A stretch of 32,713 nucleotides of DNA from Eubacterium sp. (GTDB lineage Bacteria; Bacillota; Clostridia; Lachnospirales; Lachnospiraceae): NCBI GenBank assembly GCA_017437905.1, contig JAFRWY010000031.1:1-32713 (forward strand), in the 5' to 3' direction. Every line of letters starts with the position of its first letter. The first letter of the stretch is position 1. The translations under genes and the position numbers were made by a program. This document shows positions 2,888-27,647 of this stretch, in pieces. The notes beneath the pieces were generated by a model, which saw only the letters and a list, made by a program, of their open reading frames with translations, was not told where the DNA came from and ran no database searches.

Positions 2888-5800
2888 CTATTCCTCAGTG
2901 ATCTCGATACCGTATTCCGCCTTTACTTCGTCCGGCATTTTATTATCTTTCAGCATGTCTTTGGCCTTTTTGATGAGATCCTCTACCGGGTAATGCTCAA
3001 AAAATCCTACCTGATAGATCATTTCGGCCGGATGGGTATATACATAAAATCTGTCACCGGGGGCGTGGTAGCCAAGACACCTCTGTATGGAGGTTTCTTC
3101 ATACCATGTCTCCGTTTCAATAATGCTGAGTGTATTCCCCAGCTGAAGATACAGAAGCCCTTTTCCCTTATAATACCGGAATACCGTGTCTGCATTCGCC
3201 GTATCGGGTAAGGTGAGATCACTCTGGGAGAGGATCGCTCCGGTTTCGGCATTGTAGCGATACAGGTAACCGTCGGTGGAGGGGACGAGAAGATATGTTT
3301 TATTCCCGTCCTTCTGATCGGTAAAGAAGCAGATCCCGAGAGGACTTGCGGGGCAGTTGATCACCAGTTCCTCACCGCCGCCGAGAGGGATCAGACGGAT
3401 CTCTTTTTTGTCGGATACGGCAAATGTATCCCCGCCTGCATCATAGGCGTAAAATATAGTGGGCTGTCCAGTGGGAACGGCCAGGCGTTTCGTGCTTTTG
3501 CTGCCCAGGTCAATAAGGATGGTTTCATTTCCGCAGCTCAGGAGAACGGAGTTCCGTTCGGGGAGTACCAAGGGTGCTTTTTCCAAGACGGAATCGTCCG
3601 CACCGTCACCGATTGCATATTCGGTGATTTCCTTCGTGTGCGGATCATAGGCAAAGAGCGCTATGGAATCCTGATTCCTGCTGCAGTAATAGAACCTGCC
3701 GTTGCTGAAGGTGCAAAAATCCCGGTAGATATCCGGTTCTTCCTCCGCAAGTACAAAGCTCGTGTACTTCCCGGTGCCCGGATCGATATCCAGTATCCGG
3801 TAACCGCTCTTATTTGCTGAATGACCGATATAGAAATGTGAGTCTTCCGAACCGAGAAAACGGATGCTGTAGGTCCGGAGAGAGGAACCTTCTTCCGTAA
3901 GGGGTATTGCGGATATCTGCTCGCCGGTTGCAGGATCGGCAAGCGTCAGCACAAGGAGCTCTTCGGTTTCGGTATCCGTGACTACGCCCGGATAGTCATC
4001 GGGCGATTCGTAAGTCAGGACTGCCAGAACCCTGTCATCCATATAGGATGCTTCGGGAAAACCGATCTCGCTGCCGGATTTCAACAGTTTCAGATCCTCA
4101 TCACAGACATAGAGACCGTAATGGATGATTTCCGAAGAACCGGAAGGGTGTGCAAAGAATCCGGTTTCGGGATGGAAGAGCACCTGATCCAGGTCATCTG
4201 CAAAGTAATGATCGATGGTGATACTGTCTCCGGAGCCCGGTAATGCCAGACCGCCTTTTTCCGTTACATAGAGGGGTTGGCCGCTGCCGTCCGGATCCTG
4301 TCCCATTATGATGGAATCGTTGGTGTTATGACTTGCCATCAGCGTACCGTCTGCGATGCTGTATATTTCGGCTTTGTTTGCATGATAATAAGCGACGGCT
4401 TTCTTTTCGGGAAGCAGCAGGAATTCACTTCGGATCGTTACATTTGTGCTGGTGAGATCACGGTTCCAAAGCTGTGTTAAGGTATTCGGGTCATAGCAAA
4501 GGATCTTAACATGATCTGTTTTGGTATGGATGCTGTTTTTGGCTGAAGAACTGGAAGCCATAACATCTTCCGGACATGCCATGATCAGATGATCGTCATC
4601 TCCAAAGAGGAAGGCGGTTATATATTCGTCCGGATCGATCTTATGTGTTGTTCCGCTTTCCAGATCATATATGAGTATCAGGCTGGATGCCACGTCTTTA
4701 AAGATCTTAATGGCGATCTTTCTGTTGCCCGGAGATATCTGAAGCGAGGATATGGACATGATGGCTTCGCCGCTTACATTAGGCAGCGCGTATACTGCCA
4801 TCTCGGAACCGTCCTCCGGATCAAGCTGCATAAGCTTTAGATCGGTTGTGGCAAAAAGGAGGCTGTTATCCGGGAGTGTCACATAGTCGGATGCAAAGCT
4901 GTTCGCCGTGGTTTCCTTCTCCCAGAGACAGGCTCCGTCGGATATACGGTAAGCGGTTATCTTATCCGAAGAGAGAACCAGCAGCCTGTCATCCGGCAGA
5001 AAGAAGACGTTGCCGGGATTTCCCGATTTATTTAAACTGAAAAGAAGATCATGGGTTTCTGTATCCCAGACCCGAACATTTCCGGACTTATCCCAGGCAG
5101 CCAGTTCTTTCCCGGAGGGGGAAAGCCGGCAGTTATTATTCTCTATTGTTTCAGGCATGCTGTAACTCCAGATATCCTGAATCCCAAAGCCGTCCCGGGT
5201 GGTGTAAGAGAGGGTGGAAGCAGTCAGTGCCCGTATGGCCTGCGGAGTTACGGGACGGGAATCGTCAGCATCCTTTGGTAAGGACTCAAGAGACAGCTGC
5301 AGAGAAAGGATACGCTGATCATTTCCCAGGGCATCAAGGGATTCATTTGCAAGATAGATAGACTGATTCCGCAGAGAGCTTTCAAGATTCTTACGGATCA
5401 TGATACTGCTGTAGATAAGATATACATCGAAGGCGATGATCGCCGCAGCGATCAGGGAAATGATGATCGCCAGTCTGCGGATCACAAATGCCCGGCGGCG
5501 GTTCATCAGCTCATCATAAGAACACTCCAGCAGCTTGGAAGCAAGCCGGGGGAGTTCTTCTTTCTTTGCTTTTCTCCGGGGTAAACGGTAGTCGCAGGAA
5601 AGAGGCTCCTGGGGAATGCAGACGGTATGCGTACTTCCGTCCGGATCGGTTACGGTCTTTTCCTCAAACCTTAAGATATCGGGGATCACGTCCTCCGGCT
5701 CACCGTCAACAAGAACCGTGGTGATCTGCTGCCGGGTATGACTTTGCAGGAAGTATTCGATCTCACGCTGTACCCAGGTGGATTCCTTTGTGGTTGTGGA

Positions 5801-6040
5801 ACAGATCACGATAAGATGCTCGGTATGATCCAATGCTTTGGAAATGTCGGAAGAGAGATTGCTTGCCGCACCCAGCTCATCCTTATCCAGAAATATGCGG
5901 TCAATCCTCTTTCTGCCGGTGGCTTTCCGGATCCCGGAGGGACTGTAAAAATGTTCCAGATCGGATTGTATCCGGCTTGCCACGCGGATGTCCTTATCCG
6001 AATGACGATATGAGATAAAAGCATCATAATGGTCGATCAT
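2888..6040 (-). CDS. TIR-domain membrane protein with large C-terminal beta-propeller
   Basis: 1050 residues from the ATG at 6040, preceded by GGAGG with a 9-nt spacer; an in-frame ATG three codons upstream would abut the GGAGG and is unlikely. Residues 1-150 form a TIR domain: DAFISYRHSD near the start, FLDKDELG around 50-57, and W89-V-Q-R-E93, where E93 aligns with the catalytic glutamate of TIR NADases such as SARM1. A basic stretch and one transmembrane helix follow (about 188-212). The remaining ~800 residues are repeated beta-strand blades with WD/PQQ-like patterns (for example SPSGKELAAWDKSGNVRVWD). The TIR part would be cytosolic and the propeller outside if the helix spans once. TIR-membrane-propeller proteins are a recurring uncharacterised architecture in clostridia; a signalling or defence role is only inference. 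It ends in TAG and stands alone with its own promoter. Confidence 0.88.
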   Translation of the reverse strand: MIDHYDAFISYRHSDKDIRVASRIQSDLEHFYSPSGIRKATGRKRIDRIFLDKDELGAASNLSSDISKALDHTEHLIVICSTTTKESTWVQREIEYFLQSHTRQQITTVLVDGEPEDVIPDILRFEEKTVTDPDGSTHTVCIPQEPLSCDYRLPRRKAKKEELPRLASKLLECSYDELMNRRRAFVIRRLAIIISLIAAAIIAFDVYLIYSSIMIRKNLESSLRNQSIYLANESLDALGNDQRILSLQLSLESLPKDADDSRPVTPQAIRALTASTLSYTTRDGFGIQDIWSYSMPETIENNNCRLSPSGKELAAWDKSGNVRVWDTETHDLLFSLNKSGNPGNVFFLPDDRLLVLSSDKITAYRISDGACLWEKETTANSFASDYVTLPDNSLLFATTDLKLMQLDPEDGSEMAVYALPNVSGEAIMSISSLQISPGNRKIAIKIFKDVASSLILIYDLESGTTHKIDPDEYITAFLFGDDDHLIMACPEDVMASSSSAKNSIHTKTDHVKILCYDPNTLTQLWNRDLTSTNVTIRSEFLLLPEKKAVAYYHANKAEIYSIADGTLMASHNTNDSIIMGQDPDGSGQPLYVTEKGGLALPGSGDSITIDHYFADDLDQVLFHPETGFFAHPSGSSEIIHYGLYVCDEDLKLLKSGSEIGFPEASYMDDRVLAVLTYESPDDYPGVVTDTETEELLVLTLADPATGEQISAIPLTEEGSSLRTYSIRFLGSEDSHFYIGHSANKSGYRILDIDPGTGKYTSFVLAEEEPDIYRDFCTFSNGRFYYCSRNQDSIALFAYDPHTKEITEYAIGDGADDSVLEKAPLVLPERNSVLLSCGNETILIDLGSKSTKRLAVPTGQPTIFYAYDAGGDTFAVSDKKEIRLIPLGGGEELVINCPASPLGICFFTDQKDGNKTYLLVPSTDGYLYRYNAETGAILSQSDLTLPDTANADTVFRYYKGKGLLYLQLGNTLSIIETETWYEETSIQRCLGYHAPGDRFYVYTHPAEMIYQVGFFEHYPVEDLIKKAKDMLKDNKMPDEVKAEYGIEITEE

Positions 6041-6075
6041 TGAAGACATCCTCCGAAAGTAAAAAATCTTTATTC

Positions 6076-15798: not shown

Positions 15799-17931
15799 AT
15801 GAAGAAAAAACTGATGGCGTATATCCTGACGGGTGCATTGCTTCTTTCGGGAGCTGTCGCAACCGGATCCGACACAGCGGATGCGGCAAGCGGAACATGG
15901 AAGAAAAACGCCAAAGGATGGTGGTACAGCTATTCCGATGGGACGTACGCGAAGGAAGAGTGGCTGCAGTACGGAGAAAAGTGGTACTACTTTAATTCCG
16001 CGGGTTATATGCAGACCGGCTGGAAGAAGATCGATAACAAGTGGTATTATTTTGCATCCTCCGGTGTTATGCAGAACGGCTGGCAGAAGATCTCCGGGGA
16101 ATGGTATTATTTTGCATCCGGAGCCATGCAGACCGGCTGGAAGAAGATCTCGGGCAAGTGGTACTATTTTGCATCCTCAGGCATCATGCAGACCGGCTGG
16201 CAGAAGATCTCCGGGAAATGGTATTACTTTGCATCCGGAGTCATGCAGACCGGTGTCATAACCATCAAGGGGCAGAGCTATTACTTCGGAAAGGACGGGG
16301 CCTGGATCGACAGGGAACCTCCCATCAGTATCGACAAAGCCCATTTTCCGGATGCGAACTTCAGGGCGTATATAAAGAGCGCCTTCGATGAGAACGGGGA
16401 CGGGAAACTCAGTGCGTCCGAGATCATGCTGATCTGGAATGTTCACTGTGAGAACATGAACATCTATTCCGTGAAAGGGATCGAGTATTTCCCGGACCTG
16501 AAGGGACTCTGGTGCAAGGGGAATCATATCTCCGAGCTGGATCTATCCGGGAATCCCGGCCTGAAGGGGATCTGGTGTTCCTTTAATGACTTTACGTCTT
16601 TGGACTTTTCGGACTGCCCGGAACTGGAATGGGTATATTGCTTCAACTGTAAGCTGAAATCCCTGAATATCCGGAACAATCCGGAACTGGCATATCTGGA
16701 GTGTAATTCCAATCCGGACCTAAAGACCCTGGATCTTTCGAAGAACAGTAAACTGGAGAACCTGTTCTGCAGTAAGTGCGGGCTTACGAACCTGGATCTT
16801 TCGAAGAATCCGCTGCTTTGCGAGCTGGCGGCATTCTATAACGATCTGGAGAAGATCGATGTATCCAACAACCCGAATCTGAAGCGGCTGGATATCTGGC
16901 ATAATCCGCGGCTCGGAAATGTAGATGTGAGCAGGCTTAAGGGGCTCCAGTATTATAACTGTGCCTGGACCAGTCTGACGAAGATCGATGTGACCCATAA
17001 CCCGGAGCTGGTGGAACTGGTCTGCGGGTACAATGACGGACTGAAATCCCTGAACCTTTCCGGGAATCCCAAACTGGCGTATTTTGCCTGCGAATGCGAT
17101 GTGAACCTGAAATCCCTGGACCTGTCCCATAATCCGAGGCTGTATTACCTTCTGGCCTTCGGTCTCAGCAGTATCGATACCATCGACATCAGTCATAACA
17201 GCCGTCTTTGCAAGGCTTATCAGGAAGGCACGTATGTACACGGAACGGAGAATCTGGGAAGAGTATATTCCATGACCATCGATTACGGCGGAAGCAGTGA
17301 TCCTTTTGATGAACTCCGGCATTGTGTCTGCTTTGATGATGACACCAGGATCATCGGTGAATATAAGGGTACGGATGATGTACCGGACAGTGTGATCAAT
17401 ACAAAGGACGGTCATAAGAATACGGAGACCTTCGCCACCAGAGCCGAGGCCATGCAGGCACTGTACGAAGCAGCAGGCAGTCCGGCAGTGACGGGCTCTT
17501 CCCGGTTTACGGATATTTCCGCGGATGCACCATATGCGGATGCGGTGAAGTGGGGCGAGGATCATAAAATCTGCTTCGGCTACCCCAGGATCAGTTCGGA
17601 TACCTTCTGTCCGGATGAACCGGTCACCAGACAGGATTTTGCGCTGATGGCCCATAGATATGCGGACTGTCTGAAACTCGGAACAGCCTTCGACTATGGA
17701 AGAACCGACTGGTTCGATGATTTCTTCGATATCGATTTTTATGCCTGGGGGCCCTTTACCTGGGCGATCCAGTGGCGTGTGATCGGATATGATAAGGAGA
17801 ATAACTTATGCTATCCCCACGGACGACTGACGAAGACCGAACTGAAGAACGGCGTTGCGGAAATATTCGATCTGGATGAAGGTGCCGCATATTCCGGTAT
17901 CGTCGTAGGAAATGAAGGAGATCCGAATTAG
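15799..17931 (+). CDS. Secreted wall-binding, leucine-rich-repeat, SLH-like protein
   Basis: 710 residues. The signal peptide (residues 1 to about 30) ends near ADAASG. Residues 31-170 are six or so choline/glucan-type wall-binding repeats of the form QTGWKKI..KWYYFAS.G. Next comes an EF-hand-like loop, DENGDGKLSASE (around 195-206), after FPDANFRAYI. About 230-475 are roughly a dozen 20-23-residue leucine-rich repeats (LDLS.NP.L). About 565-690 resemble SLH repeats (FTDISADAPYADAVKWGEDH; VTRQDFALMAHRYAD). The protein is exported and probably held on the wall, with the LRR as ligand- or host-binding surface. No catalytic motif is visible. The start codon lies behind GGCGGAAGG. It has its own promoter and leader hairpin and probably heads an operon with the next two genes. 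Confidence 0.9.
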   Translation: MKKKLMAYILTGALLLSGAVATGSDTADAASGTWKKNAKGWWYSYSDGTYAKEEWLQYGEKWYYFNSAGYMQTGWKKIDNKWYYFASSGVMQNGWQKISGEWYYFASGAMQTGWKKISGKWYYFASSGIMQTGWQKISGKWYYFASGVMQTGVITIKGQSYYFGKDGAWIDREPPISIDKAHFPDANFRAYIKSAFDENGDGKLSASEIMLIWNVHCENMNIYSVKGIEYFPDLKGLWCKGNHISELDLSGNPGLKGIWCSFNDFTSLDFSDCPELEWVYCFNCKLKSLNIRNNPELAYLECNSNPDLKTLDLSKNSKLENLFCSKCGLTNLDLSKNPLLCELAAFYNDLEKIDVSNNPNLKRLDIWHNPRLGNVDVSRLKGLQYYNCAWTSLTKIDVTHNPELVELVCGYNDGLKSLNLSGNPKLAYFACECDVNLKSLDLSHNPRLYYLLAFGLSSIDTIDISHNSRLCKAYQEGTYVHGTENLGRVYSMTIDYGGSSDPFDELRHCVCFDDDTRIIGEYKGTDDVPDSVINTKDGHKNTETFATRAEAMQALYEAAGSPAVTGSSRFTDISADAPYADAVKWGEDHKICFGYPRISSDTFCPDEPVTRQDFALMAHRYADCLKLGTAFDYGRTDWFDDFFDIDFYAWGPFTWAIQWRVIGYDKENNLCYPHGRLTKTELKNGVAEIFDLDEGAAYSGIVVGNEGDPN
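16012..16245 (+). repeat. Tandem 60/57-bp wall-binding repeats in a duplicated 117-bp unit
   Basis: Four consecutive units start with CAG-A.C-GG at 16012 (60 bp), 16072 (57 bp), 16129 (60 bp) and 16189 (57 bp). The 60-bp units encode ...ASSG.M and the 57-bp units lack one Ser codon. The alternation means a two-repeat block of 117 bp was duplicated. The second and fourth units differ at only four bases, so the duplication is recent or still being homogenised. Confidence 0.85.
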
Positions 17932-17963: not shown

Positions 17964-18668
17964 ATGTTGAAAGGTTTATATCCCTATACGAATCCTTATC
18001 TCAGGAGGTTGATCGGGGAGAAGAGAAAAAACTTCTGGTGGTATTTTTCCCTGATCATAGTTCCTCTCGGACTTACGCTTTACAGTCCCGCGGCAACCTT
18101 CATAGACCGCCTGGACGGGGTGAGTAAGGCGGCGGAGATTTCCTTTTGGGATGAATTGAAAGAGAATCATCTGGTTCCGCTGTTGTTCGGGTTGACGTTT
18201 CTTATCGTTTTCGGGATCGGGTTCTTCTCCGTTGATCGTTACGAGATCGCACAGTGGTACTCCGTTAATACTGCGGGAAGGAAGAAGGCATACACTCCTG
18301 AGGAAGTGGATGCCGAGGCGAATGCCCCGGGGGCCGAGTGGCTGCAGGGACTGGGGATCATTCTGGCTCCGGATATCATCATCGGATTCCGGAACGGTAT
18401 CATGGTAGCGCGATATGAAGATATAGAATTGCTGAAAACCGAGACCCGGACCAAAAGAATCCATATGGGCGTGTTCAAATGGAGAGAGGCGGAGGCGCTG
18501 CTGCTTCGCCCTTCAGGCAGCGGCATCAATGAACTCACATTGTCGGAGACTACGGAAGATCCGGAACTGGTTCAGATGGAACTGGATATCCTCCGGGAGA
18601 GATGTCAGAAGTTTCATCCGGATAAGAAGATCAAGATCAATTCGACGAAGAAAAGGAGAGGAAAATGA
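17964..18668 (+). CDS. Two-helix membrane protein with PH-like cytoplasmic domain, unknown function
   Basis: About 234 residues. I prefer the ATG at 17964 (AAGAAAGG 9 nt upstream); an in-frame TTG at 17943 would add seven residues. A basic N-terminus with several aromatic residues is followed by two hydrophobic segments (SLIIVPLGLTLYSP and VPLLFGLTFLIVFGIGFFS) and a soluble remainder. The strand pattern LAPDIIIGFRNGIMVARYEDIELL resembles small bacterial PH-like domains in which a membrane-proximal barrel follows two helices; this is a shape argument only. The tail is Lys-rich. It starts 32 nt after the LRR protein and overlaps alpha-acetolactate decarboxylase by four bases (ATGA), so the two are translationally coupled, though no functional link is obvious. 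Confidence 0.75.
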   Translation: MLKGLYPYTNPYLRRLIGEKRKNFWWYFSLIIVPLGLTLYSPAATFIDRLDGVSKAAEISFWDELKENHLVPLLFGLTFLIVFGIGFFSVDRYEIAQWYSVNTAGRKKAYTPEEVDAEANAPGAEWLQGLGIILAPDIIIGFRNGIMVARYEDIELLKTETRTKRIHMGVFKWREAEALLLRPSGSGINELTLSETTEDPELVQMELDILRERCQKFHPDKKIKINSTKKRRGK

Positions 18669-19390
18669 GTCAACAGAATAAGATGTACCAGGTTTCAACA
18701 CTGCAGGCACTTGCACTGGGATACACGAAAGCCGTGATCACGGTCAGCGAGCTGTTACAATACGGAGATACGGGTCTTGGGACCTACGAGGATGTAAACG
18801 GGGAAATGATCATCATGGACGGACGCTGCTTTCAGGCAAAATGGGACGGCTCCGTGGTTGAAGCCAGCCCCGATGAGGGAGTCCCTTTCTCTGCCGTGGC
18901 AAAGCTTTTAGGCGAGAGAGAATTTGAGATGACTGACAAGCAGGATATCGAATCCATACGTACGGAGCTGACGCAGCGGATCGAGGAGCATTTCGGCCTG
19001 AACAGTATGCATGTGGTAAGGATCGACGGAGAATTCGAGAAAGTGGACGCCAGATCCGAAGAACCTTATAAGTCACATCATGTCACCCTGAAAGAGGTTT
19101 TGGATAAGAATCAGACCGCCTTCGTATTTGAAAACATCCGGGGTTCCCTGGTGGGAGTTTATTTTCCGGATCATATGGACGGGATCAATATGCCGGGCTG
19201 GCACCTGCATTTCCTTTCGGAAGATAAAAAGAAGGGCGGACATGTATTTAATGTCATTCTGAAGAAGGGGACGGTACGTCTGGATAAGATCAGCCGGATT
19301 GAGATAGAACTGCCGAAAGCCGCGGCTTTTGATACCTATTCCCTGAAGCAGGCATCGGAGGAGGAGATCAAGAAGGTCGAGAAAGGCTGA
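18665..19390 (+). CDS. budA: Alpha-acetolactate decarboxylase
   Basis: 241 residues. The enzyme decarboxylates 2-acetolactate to acetoin in the cytosol, diverting pyruvate-derived carbon to neutral products and limiting acetolactate build-up. The zinc ligands appear as H180-L-H182 in GWHLHF and H193 in KKGGHV. The 11-residue step between the second and third histidine equals that in the Bacillus enzyme. Typical N-terminal features are present: STLQAL, YGDTGLGTYEDVNGEMIIMDG and a VPF turn. Full length for the family and no signal peptide. It overlaps the preceding membrane-protein gene by four bases and has GGAG upstream. No acetolactate synthase gene lies nearby. Confidence 0.95.
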   Translation: MSQQNKMYQVSTLQALALGYTKAVITVSELLQYGDTGLGTYEDVNGEMIIMDGRCFQAKWDGSVVEASPDEGVPFSAVAKLLGEREFEMTDKQDIESIRTELTQRIEEHFGLNSMHVVRIDGEFEKVDARSEEPYKSHHVTLKEVLDKNQTAFVFENIRGSLVGVYFPDHMDGINMPGWHLHFLSEDKKKGGHVFNVILKKGTVRLDKISRIEIELPKAAAFDTYSLKQASEEEIKKVEKG

Positions 19391-19435: not shown

Positions 19436-19487
19436 ACATACCGTCTTTTACTATCGGTTTGAGAAAGGATTGAACAGGGTAAATGCT

Positions 19488-20963
19488 ATGGATATAAGTA
19501 TGACATGGGCTAATTTTGTAAACGTTATAATTATTGCGATCGGTGTAGGGGTCTGCGGACTCAGCGTCATGCAGGTGAGTTCCGGAATCCATATCCGGCC
19601 GGAGGTGAAGAGGTATTTCCAGCTGTTCTTCAGTCTGATCATCATCTATATCACCATGCATCTCACCAGGCAGATGATGGATGGCCAGGCGGGAAAAGGA
19701 GTTCATGTTGCGATCATGATCGTAACCTTTATCGAATTCCTGGCTTCCGGATTTGTGGCCTATCTGATCTCCCTTCTGATCCTTTTTGTTACCAGGCCGG
19801 ACAATGTCAGCAAAAAGATAGCGATCTATTATCTTGTGCTCCTGGGAGTCCATTGCGTGCTCCTGATCATATCCCAGTTTACGGATCTTTTCTACTATTT
19901 CGACAGCGTGAACACGTATCACAGATCCTCAGGCTATATCCTGTCGAATCTGGCCTCCATCCTGATGCTGATATCCAGTATGGTTCTTCTGATCCGGTAT
20001 CGGGACCGAGTGCCCAGGCGGATCGCCATCGCATTCTGGATCTATCTGATTGCGCCGCTGGCGGCCATCGGGCTCCAGGCCATGGTGAGCGGTGTCCAGT
20101 TCATCATCCTTGCCACTGTTGGTGCGGCCATCTACATGTACTCGGCCATCATCCGGGAACAGACGGAGCGGTACGAGGAACAGCAGAAGGAAGCGAACCG
20201 GCTGGATACGGAGCTGACCATGGCAACGCGGATCCAGGCAGACACCCTTCCGAATATCTTCCCCGCATTTCCGGACAGGGAAGAGTTCAATATCTATGCA
20301 TCCATGAAGCCGGCCAAAGAGGTGGGCGGAGATTTCTACGATTTCTTCCTGATCGATGATGATCATCTTGGGATCGTTATGGCGGACGTGTCCGGAAAGG
20401 GTGTTCCTGCGGCTCTCTTCATGATGATATCCAAGATTCTGGTTCAGAACTATGCTTCCATGGGATTGGAGCCGAAGGAGGTACTGGCGAATGTGAACCG
20501 TCAGATCTGCAAGAATAACCGGGAAGATATGTTTGTGACCGTCTGGTTCGGTTCCCTGAATCTTTCCACCGGAAAGCTGATGGCCGGAAATGCAGGCCAT
20601 GAGTATCCGGTTCTGAAGAAGCCCGATGGACATTTCGAACTGGTGAAGGATAAGCACGGACTGGTGATCGGCGGCATGGACGGCGTGAAATACAGTCAGT
20701 ACGAGCTGCAACTGGATCCGGGAGCCAAGCTCTTTATCTACACGGACGGTGTAGCCGAGGCAACCAATGCCGCAAATGAACTCTTCGGCACGGAACGCAT
20801 GGTGGAGGCTCTCCGGCTGGCGGAGGAGGATTCCCCGAAGGAAATCCTGGAGATGGTAGATGCTGCGGTGGAAAGCTTCGTGGGAGAGGCACCGCAGTTT
20901 GATGATCTGACCATGCTGTGTATCGAGTTTGTTGGACGGGGAACTGCCTCGGAACAGGCTTAA
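19488..20963 (+). CDS. Membrane PP2C/SpoIIE-type serine phosphatase
   Basis: 491 residues from the ATG at 19488 (AGGGT 7 nt upstream); an in-frame TTG at 19470 abuts the GAGAAAGGA and is less likely. Residues 1-220 hold six or seven membrane helices. A short charged coil (REQTERYEEQQKEANRLD) follows, then a PP2C/SpoIIE domain with the metal ligands D282 in VGGDFYDFF, D300 in ADVSGKG and D472-D473 in QFDDLTML. Such enzymes usually dephosphorylate anti-sigma antagonists or similar partners. No anti-sigma or STAS gene lies next to it. The membrane half is homologous to that of the LytS-like kinase at 26343 (YYFDSVNTYHR versus YYYDAGNGYHR; EQTERYEEQQ versus DQTERFYGQQ), so both probably sense the same kind of signal. 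The promoter is of the direct-repeat type. Confidence 0.92.
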   Translation: MDISMTWANFVNVIIIAIGVGVCGLSVMQVSSGIHIRPEVKRYFQLFFSLIIIYITMHLTRQMMDGQAGKGVHVAIMIVTFIEFLASGFVAYLISLLILFVTRPDNVSKKIAIYYLVLLGVHCVLLIISQFTDLFYYFDSVNTYHRSSGYILSNLASILMLISSMVLLIRYRDRVPRRIAIAFWIYLIAPLAAIGLQAMVSGVQFIILATVGAAIYMYSAIIREQTERYEEQQKEANRLDTELTMATRIQADTLPNIFPAFPDREEFNIYASMKPAKEVGGDFYDFFLIDDDHLGIVMADVSGKGVPAALFMMISKILVQNYASMGLEPKEVLANVNRQICKNNREDMFVTVWFGSLNLSTGKLMAGNAGHEYPVLKKPDGHFELVKDKHGLVIGGMDGVKYSQYELQLDPGAKLFIYTDGVAEATNAANELFGTERMVEALRLAEEDSPKEILEMVDAAVESFVGEAPQFDDLTMLCIEFVGRGTASEQA

Positions 20964-21014: not shown

Positions 21015-21077
21015 TCAGCATCGGACAGGTTAGAAACGGAGTCTGTCTGACCGTAAGGAATGGAGGAAAGAACAACT

Positions 21078-22556
21078 ATGATGAATCTGCTTGAAGAATC
21101 CATAATCTATGCGACGGTCATGTATCAGGGAAAGGTTCGTAAGTTTAAGAACGTTCCATTTATCCTGCACCCCATGGAGGTTGCACAGATCCTGTCCACC
21201 ATGACGGATGATCAGGAGCTGATCGCTGCCGGCATGCTGCATGATATTGTGGAAGATACGGACGGAACCCTGGAAGAGATCGAAAAACGCTTCGGGAAGC
21301 GGGTGGCATTACTGGTGGCGTCCGAATCGGAGAATGATTATCCCGGAGAGGACAGGAGCGACACCTGGAAGCGCCGGAAGGAAGAATCCCTGAAGGTTCT
21401 CAGGAACAGCGATGATATCGGGGTCCAGATGCTCTGGCTTGCGGACAAGCTGGCAAATATCCGGTCTTTGGCCCGGATCTACGGGGAGAACGGAGAGAAA
21501 CTCTGGTCCATGCTGCATCAGAGTGATCCTGCAGAACAGTGCTGGTATTACCGGAGTGTGGCCGAGATCCTGGAACTGTCCCTGAACCGGACAGGCGCCT
21601 TTAAGGAACTGATCAAGCACATCAATTCCATCTGGCCCGGTACCTTTGATTCGGAGAAGGCAAAGTATAAAAAATACAAAGAAGTATCCATAGAAGGCTG
21701 CAGATTACTGGGACGCGGAGCGAAGGGAGATGTCTATCGCTACGATGACGAGCTGGTGATCAAGGTCTACAACCGGAACAATACCTACCGGGACGTTGAG
21801 CGGGAGATCGATCTATGCAGGAAGGCCTTTATTCTGGGAGTTCCGACGGAGATATCCTTCGGTATCGTATCCGTGGGAAAGCAGTACGGCGCCATGTTTG
21901 AGCTGGTGGATTCCGAGACGGTTTCCGCCCATATCGCAAAGGATCCCGGCAGAGTGGATGAATATGCGGTTCTTATGGCGAATCTGGCCCGTCTGATCCA
22001 TGGTCTTACGGTCACTCCGGAGGACGGCTTCCCGGATATGAACGTAACCCTTTGTGCCCGGGTGAATGACTGCTTTGCCGGTGAAAATGAGGAGCTTGCG
22101 GAGCGCTGCATGCGGCTGGTGAAGACCATTCCGGAATCCGATCATCTGGTTCATGGGGATTTCCATACCGGAAATGTATTCCTGCAAAGCGGGGAACCGC
22201 TTCTTATCGATATGGACCGGATGTCAACCGGCCACCCCATTGCGGAACTCAGTGATCTCATGTATTTCTATCAGATCCTGGGAGAGGACGATCCGGCAGT
22301 GGTTGAGGATTTTATGGGATTCCCCTACGCCACGGCGCTGCAGTTTTTCGATACATTTTTAAAGACCTACCTGGAAACAGAGGATGAGGATAAGATCATG
22401 GATGTAAAGAAGAAAGCCTCCCTGATCTGCTATATGCGCCTGATCCGGAAGTTCCGGAAGGCAAAGCATCTTTCGGAAGAAGAACAGCGGAAGGTGGAGT
22501 ATTACATGAAGAAACTGGCGGTGCTGACCGATGAGCTGGAAACGCTGGTTTTCTGA
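21078..22556 (+). CDS. (p)ppGpp-hydrolase-like HD domain fused to an APH/choline-kinase-like domain
   Basis: 492 residues from the ATG at 21078 (AGGAAAG 7 nt upstream). The ATG at 21060 would place the GGAGG inside the gene. Residues 1-190 form an HD hydrolase of the SpoT/Mesh1 type: H31 (ILHP), H55-D56 and E59-D60 (LHDIVEDT), D123 and N127 (LADKLAN). These match H53, H77, D78, E81, D82, D144 and N148 of Rel/SpoT in spacing, and no synthetase domain follows. Residues 210-480 form a small-molecule kinase: a glycine-rich loop (GRGAKGDVYRYDD), K229, the catalytic loop HGDFHTGN (D361, N366) and the metal ligand in LLIDMD (D378). Both halves look active. It is soluble. The HD half may cleave (p)ppGpp or a related nucleotide; the kinase substrate is unknown. 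This is a two-enzyme fusion I do not recognise as characterised. Confidence 0.88.
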   Translation: MMNLLEESIIYATVMYQGKVRKFKNVPFILHPMEVAQILSTMTDDQELIAAGMLHDIVEDTDGTLEEIEKRFGKRVALLVASESENDYPGEDRSDTWKRRKEESLKVLRNSDDIGVQMLWLADKLANIRSLARIYGENGEKLWSMLHQSDPAEQCWYYRSVAEILELSLNRTGAFKELIKHINSIWPGTFDSEKAKYKKYKEVSIEGCRLLGRGAKGDVYRYDDELVIKVYNRNNTYRDVEREIDLCRKAFILGVPTEISFGIVSVGKQYGAMFELVDSETVSAHIAKDPGRVDEYAVLMANLARLIHGLTVTPEDGFPDMNVTLCARVNDCFAGENEELAERCMRLVKTIPESDHLVHGDFHTGNVFLQSGEPLLIDMDRMSTGHPIAELSDLMYFYQILGEDDPAVVEDFMGFPYATALQFFDTFLKTYLETEDEDKIMDVKKKASLICYMRLIRKFRKAKHLSEEEQRKVEYYMKKLAVLTDELETLVF

Positions 22557-22625: not shown

Positions 22626-23003
22626 ATGAAGATCACAACCTTCAATCCGTCAATTATTACAAAAGACGCAGAACCTGTTATTAAAGTGTTTGAGGAACTT
22701 GGGTTTAAGCAGACACACAACAAGGCCGAGAATACGGATGTTGAGTTTTCTGCTCACCGAATGAAGGATGAAAACGGCTTCCATGTGGATGTGGTTGAAG
22801 TACCTGTCATTCCCCAGACCTACTCAACCATCCGCATTAATGTGGATAATCAGGAGGAGGCACTGGAATTTTTTAAATCACAGGGATTCAGAGAAGCACG
22901 GGGATTTGCGCCAAGCACCACAAAGAGCAGTAAGTATGCATATCTTGTATCTCCGACAGGGATCATCATGGATGTATGCCAGCATGTCAAAAAGAACGAC
23001 TGA
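22626..23003 (+). CDS. VOC/glyoxalase-fold protein, copy 1
   Basis: 125 residues; the start is fixed by AAAGGAGG 8 nt upstream. A single vicinal-oxygen-chelate-like module: MKITTFNPSIITKDAEPVIKVFEELGF (first strand-helix), FHVDVVEVP, STIRINVDNQEEALEFFKSQGF (second strand-helix) and a closing VSPTGIIMDVCQH. Usual family metal ligands are not convincing, so it may bind ligand rather than catalyse, or work as a dimer. Small and cytosolic. A paralogue with the same start and end motifs follows 59 nt later. Confidence 0.82.
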   Translation: MKITTFNPSIITKDAEPVIKVFEELGFKQTHNKAENTDVEFSAHRMKDENGFHVDVVEVPVIPQTYSTIRINVDNQEEALEFFKSQGFREARGFAPSTTKSSKYAYLVSPTGIIMDVCQHVKKND

Positions 23004-23062
23004 CCCGATGCAAACAGAGGAAACTATTAACTGTATATATATTTTTTCAGGAGGATTTAATT

Positions 23063-23449
23063 ATGAAAATCACATCTTTCAACCCGCTCATCGTAACCTC
23101 ACATGCAGAGACCGTGATCGCTACTTTCGAAGCACTCGGTTTTGAACGCCGTCACAAGAAGACCGGTATCAATGACAGTGATATCTATGATGTACGCCTC
23201 AGACTCGAAAATGAGGACGGTAAGGTATTCCATGTGGATGTTACCCAGGCTCCGGTTCCGCAGGATATTACAACGATCCGTATGAATGTGGATAATTTTG
23301 AGGAGGCATACGAGCTGCTTCAGGCAAAGGGCTTTAAGAACGCCCAGGGTGATAAGATCACGGAGACCGGATCCTCAAGATCCACCATGATGGTTTCCCC
23401 GTCCGGCTTCTCCATCAGCATTTCACAGCATATCAAGGATCATGACTGA
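23063..23449 (+). CDS. VOC/glyoxalase-fold protein, copy 2
   Basis: 128 residues from the ATG at 23063 with AGGAGG 7 nt upstream; an in-frame frame extension to 22976 overlaps the first copy and has no ribosome site. It aligns end to end with copy 1 (MKIT.FNP.I.T, FHVDV, TIR.NVDN.EEA, VSP.G, QH.K..D), clearly a tandem duplication that has diverged. The second copy has two extra residues around GINDSDIYD and a more polar C-terminal part. Function unknown. A strong terminator closes the pair. Confidence 0.85.
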   Translation: MKITSFNPLIVTSHAETVIATFEALGFERRHKKTGINDSDIYDVRLRLENEDGKVFHVDVTQAPVPQDITTIRMNVDNFEEAYELLQAKGFKNAQGDKITETGSSRSTMMVSPSGFSISISQHIKDHD

Positions 23450-26342: not shown

Positions 26343-27647
26343 ATGGATGGCGGAATCTTGAATGCGAACCTGATCATCAGTATATCAGGCCTTGTGATCT
26401 GTATCCTGGGACTGATCCAGGTCAGTGTGGGATTTCGTCATGACAGAAAGACGAAACGATTCTTCATCCTCTTTTTTTCCTGTCTGATCGCCTATGTCAG
26501 TATGAATCTGCTGGAACATTTGACGGATGCATCTCCGGAGGCGGGGATGATCCCCAAGATCGCCATGTTCCTGGAATCCACGATTTCTTCCGTGCTCATG
26601 CTGCTTCTTTCGGGATTCCTGCTGGATTCCTGCGGAATAGAGAAAAAAAGGCATCCTCTACTCATCACATCATTTGTACTGTGGCTGATCTATATGGGAC
26701 TACTGATCTTCACGCAGTTCACGACAGTGATCTATTATTATGATGCCGGTAACGGTTACCACCGCGGAAACTGGTATCCGGTGCTCCTAATCCCTCCGGT
26801 TTTGCTTATGCTGGTCAATCTTATCGGACTGATCATATTCAGGAAGAGGATCTCATTTAAGATGCGTTTTGCTTTTGCCTTATATCTGCTGCTTCCCATG
26901 ATCTCCATGCTGATCCAGATGCTGTTCTACGGTGTTTATGTGATCGTACTAGGAACGGCCATCGCTGCATTTTTCATGCTGACCTATAATCTGATGGATC
27001 AGACGGAACGTTTCTACGGACAGCAGGCGGAATATGAGAAAATGAAGGTCGATATCATGATGGCGGAGGTACGACCGCATTTCATCTTCAACAGTCTGAC
27101 GGCGATCCGGGCCTGTCTGGATGAACCGGAGAAGGCGGAGGCGGCACTGAATCATTTTACGAAGTTTCTGCGAAGCAGTATTGACGTGCTGGAGGAGACG
27201 GAGTGCATCCCCATGGCGGAGGAGCTAAAGACCGTGGATAACTATCTGTATCTGGCCAAAGAACGTTTCGGAGAGAAGCTGACGGTGCTGTAGGAGATTC
27301 GGGAGGAGAATTTCCGTCTTCCTTCCTTTTCGGTTCAGACACTGGTGGAAAATGCGGTCCAGCATGGGATCCGCGGGAATAAAGGCGGACGGGGGACCCT
27401 CCGCATCCGCAGCTTCCGCAGGGAAGGTGAATATGTGATCGAGGTGGAGGATGACGGAGCCGGCTTTCCGGAAGAAACCGGCGGTAAGGAGGATCGATCC
27501 CATATCGGAATTACCAATTTGAGAAAACGCCTGGAACTGATGTGTAACGGTGTACTGGAGTTTGAGAGTGAACCCGGGAAGGGGACCCTGGCCAGGATTC
27601 GGATTCCGGGAGGATCATCTCAGGGTGAGAAGCCCCCTGCCTCTTAG
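26343..27647 (+). pseudogene. LytS-like sensor histidine kinase split by an in-frame amber codon
   Basis: The ATG at 26343 follows AGGAGGG. Residues 1-220 form six or seven membrane helices, homologous to the SpoIIE phosphatase at 19488. Then QTERFYGQQAEYEKMK and the LytS/YehU-type histidine motif RPHFIFNSL (H246). Codon 317 (27291-27293) is TAG. The frame continues without other stops as EIREENFRLPSF, LVENAVQHGI (N box), DDGAGFP and GITNLRKRLELM, ending at TAG 27645. So the ATPase domain is cut from the histidine by one base change. A 316-residue product could not autophosphorylate. The frame is otherwise clean, so the change is recent, read through, or a sequencing error. The partner regulator starts 42 nt downstream. 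Confidence 0.85.

Follow-up and report, generated by a model that had tools for sequence, protein, structure and literature searches.

What would a protein do that joins, in one chain, a domain resembling a stand-alone (p)ppGpp hydrolase and a kinase of the APH type? The question is raised by a gene in a stretch of Eubacterium sp. DNA of 32,713 nucleotides (contig JAFRWY010000031.1; hereafter, the window), for which an earlier reading of the bare sequence, the original prediction, had proposed just such a fusion. Here, we analyzed the gene, its two halves, and their relatives by comparison of sequences, predicted structures, and gene neighborhoods. Our preferred reading, to which we assign a probability of roughly 0.5, is that the fusion is a nucleotide-responsive kinase of a partner switch of the SpoIIE/STAS/RsbW type.

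The fusion gene and its parts

The gene and its domains are laid out as follows.

21078–22556, forward strand: HD-kinase fusion gene, 492 aa (open reading frame; Pfam HD_4 and APH)
21078–21647, forward strand: HD domain of the small-alarmone-hydrolase (SAH) type, residues 1–190 (Pfam HD_4, PDB 7qoe/4yf1, Foldseek)
21648–21686, forward strand: linker, residues 191–203, with pLDDT below 50 at residues 193–195 (structure model)
21687–22553, forward strand: APH-fold kinase domain, residues 204–492 (PF01636, TIGR02172 below cut-off, models, fold searches)
22152–22175, forward strand: catalytic loop HGDFHTGN, residues 359–366
22203–22217, forward strand: LIDMD, residues 376–380, with the metal aspartate D378

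The longest open reading frame (21060–22556) begins at an in-frame ATG upstream of this gene, at 21060. The ATG at 21078 is nevertheless the likely start, because a Shine-Dalgarno-like GGAGG precedes it and because 8 of 12 intact orthologues have the earliest start codon of their frame at the same place. Numbered on the longer frame, Pfam assigns residues 16–140 to HD_4 (2.3e-21, over the gathering score) and residues 215–407 to APH (PF01636; 2.6e-13, 50.8 bits against a gathering score of 23.2). In an AlphaFold2 model of the fusion protein built from 22 aligned sequences (mean pLDDT, 89.6; pTM, 0.68), Foldseek matched the first half to solved SAHs and the second to APH-fold kinases. The reading frame is real, and the presence of an SAH-type HD domain and an APH-fold kinase in one protein is confirmed; the HD domain is followed by the kinase and not by a synthetase domain, and the kinase loop and metal aspartate are intact, all as originally predicted.

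Distribution and phylogeny of the fusion

We found 23 distinct copies of the fusion in Lachnospiraceae and rumen clostridial genomes, made up of 22 loci and a fragment that retains the kinase end (L069); copies L014 and L015 are labeled Ruminococcaceae and Clostridiales, and L015 is frameshifted. Since the fusion is conserved over all these copies, a chance resemblance is excluded. The wider alternative, that the frame is either such a resemblance or an assembly artefact, is exceedingly improbable: nothing in the window speaks for it, and its one foothold is the frameshift in L015, a single record, whereas 12 copies aligned to the window protein are 49–85% identical to it and the copies form one clade in both trees described below. 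A search of genome contigs returned the full-length fusion in eight of nine loci, L015 among them, the ninth (L017) being a long Rel-like protein that matches the HD half only. In genome samples that overlap and include the window's own genome, the fusion occurred in 6 of 299 family genomes, in 14 of 61 genus genomes (one of them with a fragment at a contig end), and in 3 of 398 genomes of a phylum sample, all three from the window's family, at a threshold of E 1e-60 that passes over weaker, more distant fusions.

The kinase tree is a midpoint drawing with SH-aLRT values but without bootstrap. In it, a single branch (SH-aLRT 100) separates the 22 HD-kinases and L069 from all other rows, and a set of 48 rows (SH-aLRT 99) holds the HD-kinases together with STAS-domain kinases of the group that we call clade 1 (see below) and some other kinases; the inner order of this set is unresolved and does not give which STAS-kinases are sister to the HD-kinases. 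The HD tree, which leaves out L015 (split) and L069 (cut), gathers the 21 fused HD domains into one clade (bootstrap/SH-aLRT, 100/99), and their sister (96/87) is L142, a separate HD protein whose gene adjoins that of a STAS-kinase. Both trees fit a single fusion event, which is the simplest interpretation.

A mobile-element or phage origin was considered and rejected, as 80% query coverage was reached in none of the 161 plasmid and 103 phage records with a match; the best 10 plasmid rows all match the HD half, and the best 10 phage rows match the HD half in nine cases and the kinase half in one. A role in anti-phage defence was likewise set aside, with PADLOC giving no match for the fusion, for its SpoIIE neighbor, or for three proteins of the related clusters.

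The HD half

All seven hydrolase residues named in the original prediction are present in the window protein, exactly as listed (H31, H55, D56, E59, D60, D123, and N127); that prediction set them beside H53, H77, D78, E81, D82, D144, and N148 of Rel. In a sequence search of the PDB, the HD half lies nearest to 7qoe (2.3e-21) and then to 4yf1 (5.2e-21), and the modeled first half superposes on 7qoc, 7qod, and 7qoe with TM-scores by target length of 0.84–0.88 and rmsd values of 1.9–2.4 Å. In sequence, the alignment to solved SAHs covers about 160 (162) residues and so extends past the HD core; by fold, it covers about 185 columns. The expected grouping of the seven residues in one site is thus supported only at the level of fold and alignment. 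Given this agreement with solved SAHs in both respects, the HD half may plausibly bind or act on a ppGpp-like nucleotide.

The closest known proteins are the RelH-type SAHs, that is, RelH of C. glutamicum (7qoc/7qod), RelH of L. levettii (7qoe), and Listeria Lmo0812 (4yf1). The fused domain shares with them the HD_4 fold, the seven catalytic residues, and, beyond the core HD, W97/R100, W143, and W156-Y157. SAHs in general are small, single-domain proteins, according to the accessible part of one source (PMC3153485). In contrast to the single-domain RelH-type SAHs, the HD domain described here is either fused to a kinase of ∼290 aa or encoded separately within a SpoIIE/STAS/RsbW cluster, and many fused copies have an altered D60.

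The survey of conservation that bore out the fusion was less kind to the complete set of catalytic residues. The metal residues H31, H55, D56, and D123, along with E59, are retained in all 21 fused HD domains, and N127 and R21 in 20 of them, whereas D60 is kept in 12 and changed in 9 (to E in six, N in one, and G in one, with one deletion); in L193, N127, R21, and K22 are changed as well. On the HD tree, the changes at D60 need at least five events. In unfused HD domains, D60 is unchanged in all 26 of the main alignment and in four further HD proteins from gene clusters (0 of 30 changed), and Fisher's test of 9/21 against 0/26 gives 2e-4 with relatedness ignored. A residue that changes in fused HD domains and in none of these unfused ones fits a sensor role. 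We take D66 of human MESH1 to be the counterpart of D60. The MESH1 D66K variant is catalytically inactive and was crystallized with NADPH, as stated in the accessible part of PMC9894426. A reasonable reading is that catalysis may have been lost and binding kept in some fused HD domains, and it is doubtful that all members of the fusion family are active as hydrolases. Against the sensor reading, six of the nine changes are mild (D to E); such a change may leave activity, and the window copy has all the residues.

Two alternatives concern this half of the protein. The first takes the loss of D60 further, proposing that the HD half now serves for structure or docking, its chemistry no longer relevant, and that only the kinase is functional. 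The nine altered copies and the additional changes in L193 lean this way, but the retention of the other site residues in 20 or 21 of 21 copies points to constraint on the metal and ligand sites, and we regard this alternative as quite improbable. The second keeps the partner-switch role but replaces the alarmone by another 2′- or 3′-phosphorylated nucleotide (PAP, PAPS, CoA, or NADPH), on the example of MESH1, which, in the accessible parts of the respective papers, acts on NADPH (PMC9894426) and on CoA (PMC13221220) and for which a D66K-PAPS structure is deposited (9chy). Moreover, alarmone turnover would be independent of the fusion, since the window's own genome also encodes a long Rel-like protein (L008) and another small HD protein (L033). 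Among solved structures, however, both sequence and fold place bacterial RelH-type SAHs (a family name taken from the accessible part of PMC10434055) closest to the HD half, and we hold this second alternative to be rather unlikely.

The kinase half and its relatives

The kinase half belongs to the APH superfamily, with PF01636 over its gathering score and the HxDxxxxN and D motifs in place. K229, H359, D361, N366, and D378 are retained in all 22 HD-kinases, and within the catalytic loop H359, G360, D361, H363, and N366 are identical in all 22. In common with TIGR02172 and APH-like phosphotransferases, it has the APH catalytic loop and the metal aspartate; it aligns to model positions 7–226 of 226 of NCBIfam TIGR02172 (1.3e-27) but differs from that family in its score (97.1 bits against a curated cut-off of 228.2) and in carrying an N-terminal HD domain (STAS in relatives). 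A kinase-only model (pLDDT, 91.1; pTM, 0.88) found methylthioribose and aminoglycoside kinases as its best fold matches, with TM-scores of about 0.4–0.6 in the best 50 rows. Judged by the model, these fold neighbors are small-molecule kinases and count against a partner-switch role. They suit instead a bifunctional metabolic enzyme, in which the HD domain hydrolyzes (p)ppGpp and the kinase phosphorylates a sugar, nucleoside, or antibiotic, with no part in partner switching; neither half of the window protein has lost a catalytic residue, and alpha-acetolactate decarboxylase (ALDC) and VOC-like proteins recur near the fusion (see below).

The relatives of the kinase point elsewhere. The window kinase is 32–39% identical to five clade-1 STAS-kinases, compared to 24–30% for seven other family members aligned. 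Members of the kinase family occur in 35 of 150 family genomes at E 1e-15, and among 16 family loci inspected, STAS-kinases are encoded in the 12 with longer frames (L114–L125), and the kinase alone in the 4 whose frames are ∼300 aa (L126–L129). Besides the fusion, the window's own genome contains six sequences that match the kinase half, two of which are STAS-kinase fusions. An identity as an antibiotic-resistance kinase was examined separately and rejected: in a PDB profile search, kinases matched only at E 6.9e-6 or weaker (YtaA first, at 6.9e-6, then hygromycin kinase, at 0.0012), and neighbors of the family are often signaling proteins.

STAS-kinase clusters related to the fusion

Clade 1 comprises the STAS-kinases found with the STAS-kinase of L133 as the query, so that the STAS fusion was part of the query; L133 was itself first found through its HD neighbor and is a biased pick. 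Members occurred in 15 of 290 Lachnospiraceae genomes (E <1e-120) and in 8 of 287 genomes of a class sample (E <1e-110), the latter in five other families. Around these 23 loci, SpoIIE is found in 15. RsbW-type ATPases are present in 18, fused in cis as STAS-kinase-RsbW in 11 and encoded nearby in 7. A separate STAS gene is present in 14 loci, within 3.4 kb (one at 3.3 kb), and 9 loci have a stand-alone gene for an SAH-type HD protein of about 190–200 aa; three loci (L199, L200, and L203) have none of these four. Three clusters illustrate the arrangement.

L252: SpoIIE-RsbW, STAS, HD, STAS-kinase
L255: STAS, SpoIIE, STAS-kinase-RsbW, HD
L160: SpoIIE, STAS-kinase-RsbW, HD, with overlapping genes

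Pfam bears out the cluster domains in a sample of 10 proteins, and genes overlap by a few to ∼20 nt in several loci, which argues for operons. Around 17 more distant STAS-kinases, we found SpoIIE once, a divergent RsbW once, and Y_phosphatase3 twice.

The STAS loop YISSAGLR is identical in 10 of 10 STAS-kinases aligned, and the separate STAS proteins carry Y[IVM]SSAGLR in 9 of 9 aligned, six of them as YISSAGLR. Eight aligned RsbW-type domains keep the asparagine region and the glycine-rich motif that we take to be the N-box and GGLG; these domains may act as kinases too, which would make the APH kinase a second input. The clusters supply candidate substrates for the APH kinase. Because the nearest kinases are fused to STAS domains (and some to RsbW-type domains) and many stand beside SpoIIE phosphatases, protein phosphorylation in a partner switch is favored over a small-molecule substrate. 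The antibiotic, sugar, or nucleoside substrate suggested originally loses ground accordingly, and the bifunctional metabolic enzyme described above appears unlikely, all the more as the change at D60 is confined to the fused clade and a SpoIIE gene adjoins the fusion in the window.

Separate HD genes connect these clusters with the fusion. Related HD genes are present in 93 of 299 family genomes at E 1e-30, six of the 93 being the fusion itself. Among the 30 matches listed in the HD search, 21 are HD genes that have no kinase within 1.5 kb, and wider flanks, inspected for 20 of these (three flanks being shorter than 3 kb), contained no SpoIIE, STAS, RsbW, or kinase gene within 3 kb; GGDEF genes were present in two. 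Seven loci around other SpoIIE genes of the window's own genome likewise contained no such kinase. HD and kinase thus occur both as neighbors and as a fusion, a Rosetta-stone argument that the two parts work together, and the window protein looks like a fused form of parts encoded separately elsewhere.

Two further observations concern related genes. Genes resembling Y_phosphatase3 recurrently adjoin STAS-kinases, lone kinases, or HD-kinases (L259, L031, L123, L126, L009, and L070), which is another kinase-phosphatase pairing; in L259 (3667–7915), phosphatase, STAS-kinase, phosphatase, and STAS-kinase alternate, and further examples lie at 5073–7817 in L031 and 251–1105 in L009. The small HD protein of the window's own genome (L033, 3602–4069, reverse strand; 155 aa) falls just under the HD_4 gathering score, adjoins an apparent ABC transporter (read by eye), and is a possible small hydrolase.

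Neighborhoods of the fusion loci

The genes next to the fusion in the window are as follows.

18665–19390, forward strand: ALDC (PF03306, 2.3e-66; TIGR01252 over cut-off)
19470–20963, forward strand: membrane protein (N-terminal ∼245 aa) with a SpoIIE-type PP2C phosphatase domain, residues 296–487 (PF07228, 5.1e-50)
22626–23003, forward strand: small VOC-like protein (weak Pfam matches, below cut-off)
22976–23449, forward strand: second VOC-like paralogue (Pfam matches, neighborhood comparison)

The SpoIIE gene ends 114 nt upstream of the fusion gene on the same strand, a scan of the forward strand found no terminator-like site between them, and the encoded phosphatase is a probable partner of the fusion kinase. 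Within 3 kb of the fusion in the window, SpoIIE is the only such component, with no STAS antagonist or RsbW-type GHKL ATPase; other contigs of the same genome hold seven STAS matches and four HATPase_c_2 matches, three of them over the cut-off.

Neighbors were counted within 3 kb of 22 fusion loci, several of which have shorter flanks. SpoIIE is present in 4 of the 22 (the window, L009, L015, and L023), which, with 10 SpoIIE matches in the window's own genome, corresponds to a P value of about 0.0035 under crude random placement; set against 0 of 20 loci with HD alone, the contrast is weak. A STAS gene lies directly upstream of the fusion in L025, and L015 brings together RsbW, SpoIIE, HD-kinase, and STAS-kinase. 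No SpoIIE, STAS, or RsbW gene lies within 3 kb in 17 of the 22 loci, which weighs against our preferred reading, as the partners would often be unlinked. ALDC and VOC-like proteins, which would suit a metabolic enzyme, are commoner neighbors than SpoIIE. ALDC is found in six loci (the window, L015, L070, L072, L073, and L074), with varying orientation and position, compared to 0 of 59 comparison loci (Fisher, 2e-4), four of the six being close relatives; its tie to branched-chain amino acids is suggestive only. VOC-like proteins, often two, are found in seven (the window, L010, L015, L016, L023, L071, and L072), and one also adjoins the fragment L069. GGDEF genes occur in four loci, Y_phosphatase3 in two, and MCP in two, and eight loci (L011, L012, L014, L024, L026, L075, L076, and L077) had none of the domains sought within 3 kb. 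Slightly farther out, a STAS-kinase lies 3.2 kb from the fusion in L077, and in L014 the opposite strand carries a SpoIIE gene at a distance of 4.3 kb.

Proposed mechanism and comparison with known systems

By analogy with known anti-σ kinase/phosphatase switches and with the kinase CapK, we propose the following scheme, in which the nucleotide, its control of the kinase, the phosphorylation of the STAS serine, and the output are all inferred. The SAH-type HD domain would bind (p)ppGpp or a closely related 3′-phosphorylated purine nucleotide and, in the window copy, probably hydrolyze it too. Occupancy or turnover of this site would gate the fused APH-fold kinase, which would phosphorylate the conserved serine of a STAS protein in its YISSAGLR loop, and the membrane SpoIIE phosphatase encoded upstream would take the phosphate off again. 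The phosphorylation state of the STAS protein would then decide whether an RsbW-type ATPase holds the STAS protein or its own target. As the fused protein has no STAS domain, the STAS substrate would be in trans. In known systems, the STAS serine is phosphorylated by anti-σ factor kinases of the RsbW type and dephosphorylated by a phosphatase, according to the accessible part of PMC8256260. Since RsbW-type ATPases are thus STAS kinases themselves and their motifs look intact here, a second STAS kinase would not be required.

A broader version of this scheme extends to a whole set of clostridial nucleotide-gated partner switches, so far undescribed, in which an APH-fold kinase phosphorylates STAS and an SAH domain senses, the two being fused in rumen Lachnospiraceae, where hydrolysis yields to sensing; we offer it tentatively, at somewhat less than even odds. 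Its further elements, an HD domain encoded by a separate gene in several lineages and an APH kinase that acts besides the usual GHKL anti-σ kinase, we consider possible to the same limited degree.

The clade-1 clusters resemble the Rsb and SpoII switches (RsbU/SpoIIE, RsbV/SpoIIAA, and RsbW/SpoIIAB) in their SpoIIE phosphatase, STAS serine loop, and RsbW-type ATPase. They differ in having two extra components, an SAH-type HD domain and an APH-fold kinase that is usually joined to STAS, and no σ factor gene was noticed alongside when the neighbors were read by eye. A precedent for a ligand-gated kinase with a STAS domain that acts on a separate STAS protein is CapK, which, in the accessible part of PMC13373217, is an HTH-STAS-GHKL kinase activated by ssDNA that phosphorylates the STAS serine of CapS, a STAS-wHTH repressor. 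The kinase domain of CapK is of the GHKL type, whereas here an APH-fold kinase is combined with a proposed sensor derived from an HD hydrolase domain. In a literature search that covered sources partly and left subscription journals largely outside, we found no description of SAH-APH or STAS-APH fusions or of a partner-switch system with an SAH, in agreement with the earlier statement that no characterized enzyme has this domain order. What is new is the combination; the domains and the switch logic are already known.

If our preferred reading is true, the fusion would physically link the levels of an alarmone, or of a related nucleotide, to SpoIIE/STAS/RsbW switches. Alarmones and partner switches are two main stress circuits of bacteria that are usually treated apart; the stringent response would be joined directly to partner switching, and starvation signals may be wired into gene control. 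It would also give a role to kinases annotated merely as phosphotransferases and suggests that an SAH is being converted from an enzyme into a receptor.

Other genes of the window

Four further genes of the window are listed here as observations in their own right.

2888–6049, reverse strand: 1053-aa protein with a TIR domain (TIR_2 / ThsB_TIR, residues 11–124) and a PQQ / beta-propeller-like region
15799–17931, forward strand: surface-type protein of 710 aa that carries choline-binding and leucine-rich repeats and matches SLH
26343–27293, forward strand: membrane protein with a His_kinase domain (PF06580)
27345–27647, forward strand: short open reading frame after the His_kinase gene

The TIR protein is possibly involved in defence or signaling. 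The His_kinase protein and the SpoIIE phosphatase have an N-terminal membrane region in common, with 33% identity; by this similarity, one predicted sensor type is placed on two different outputs, a SpoIIE phosphatase and a His_kinase protein.
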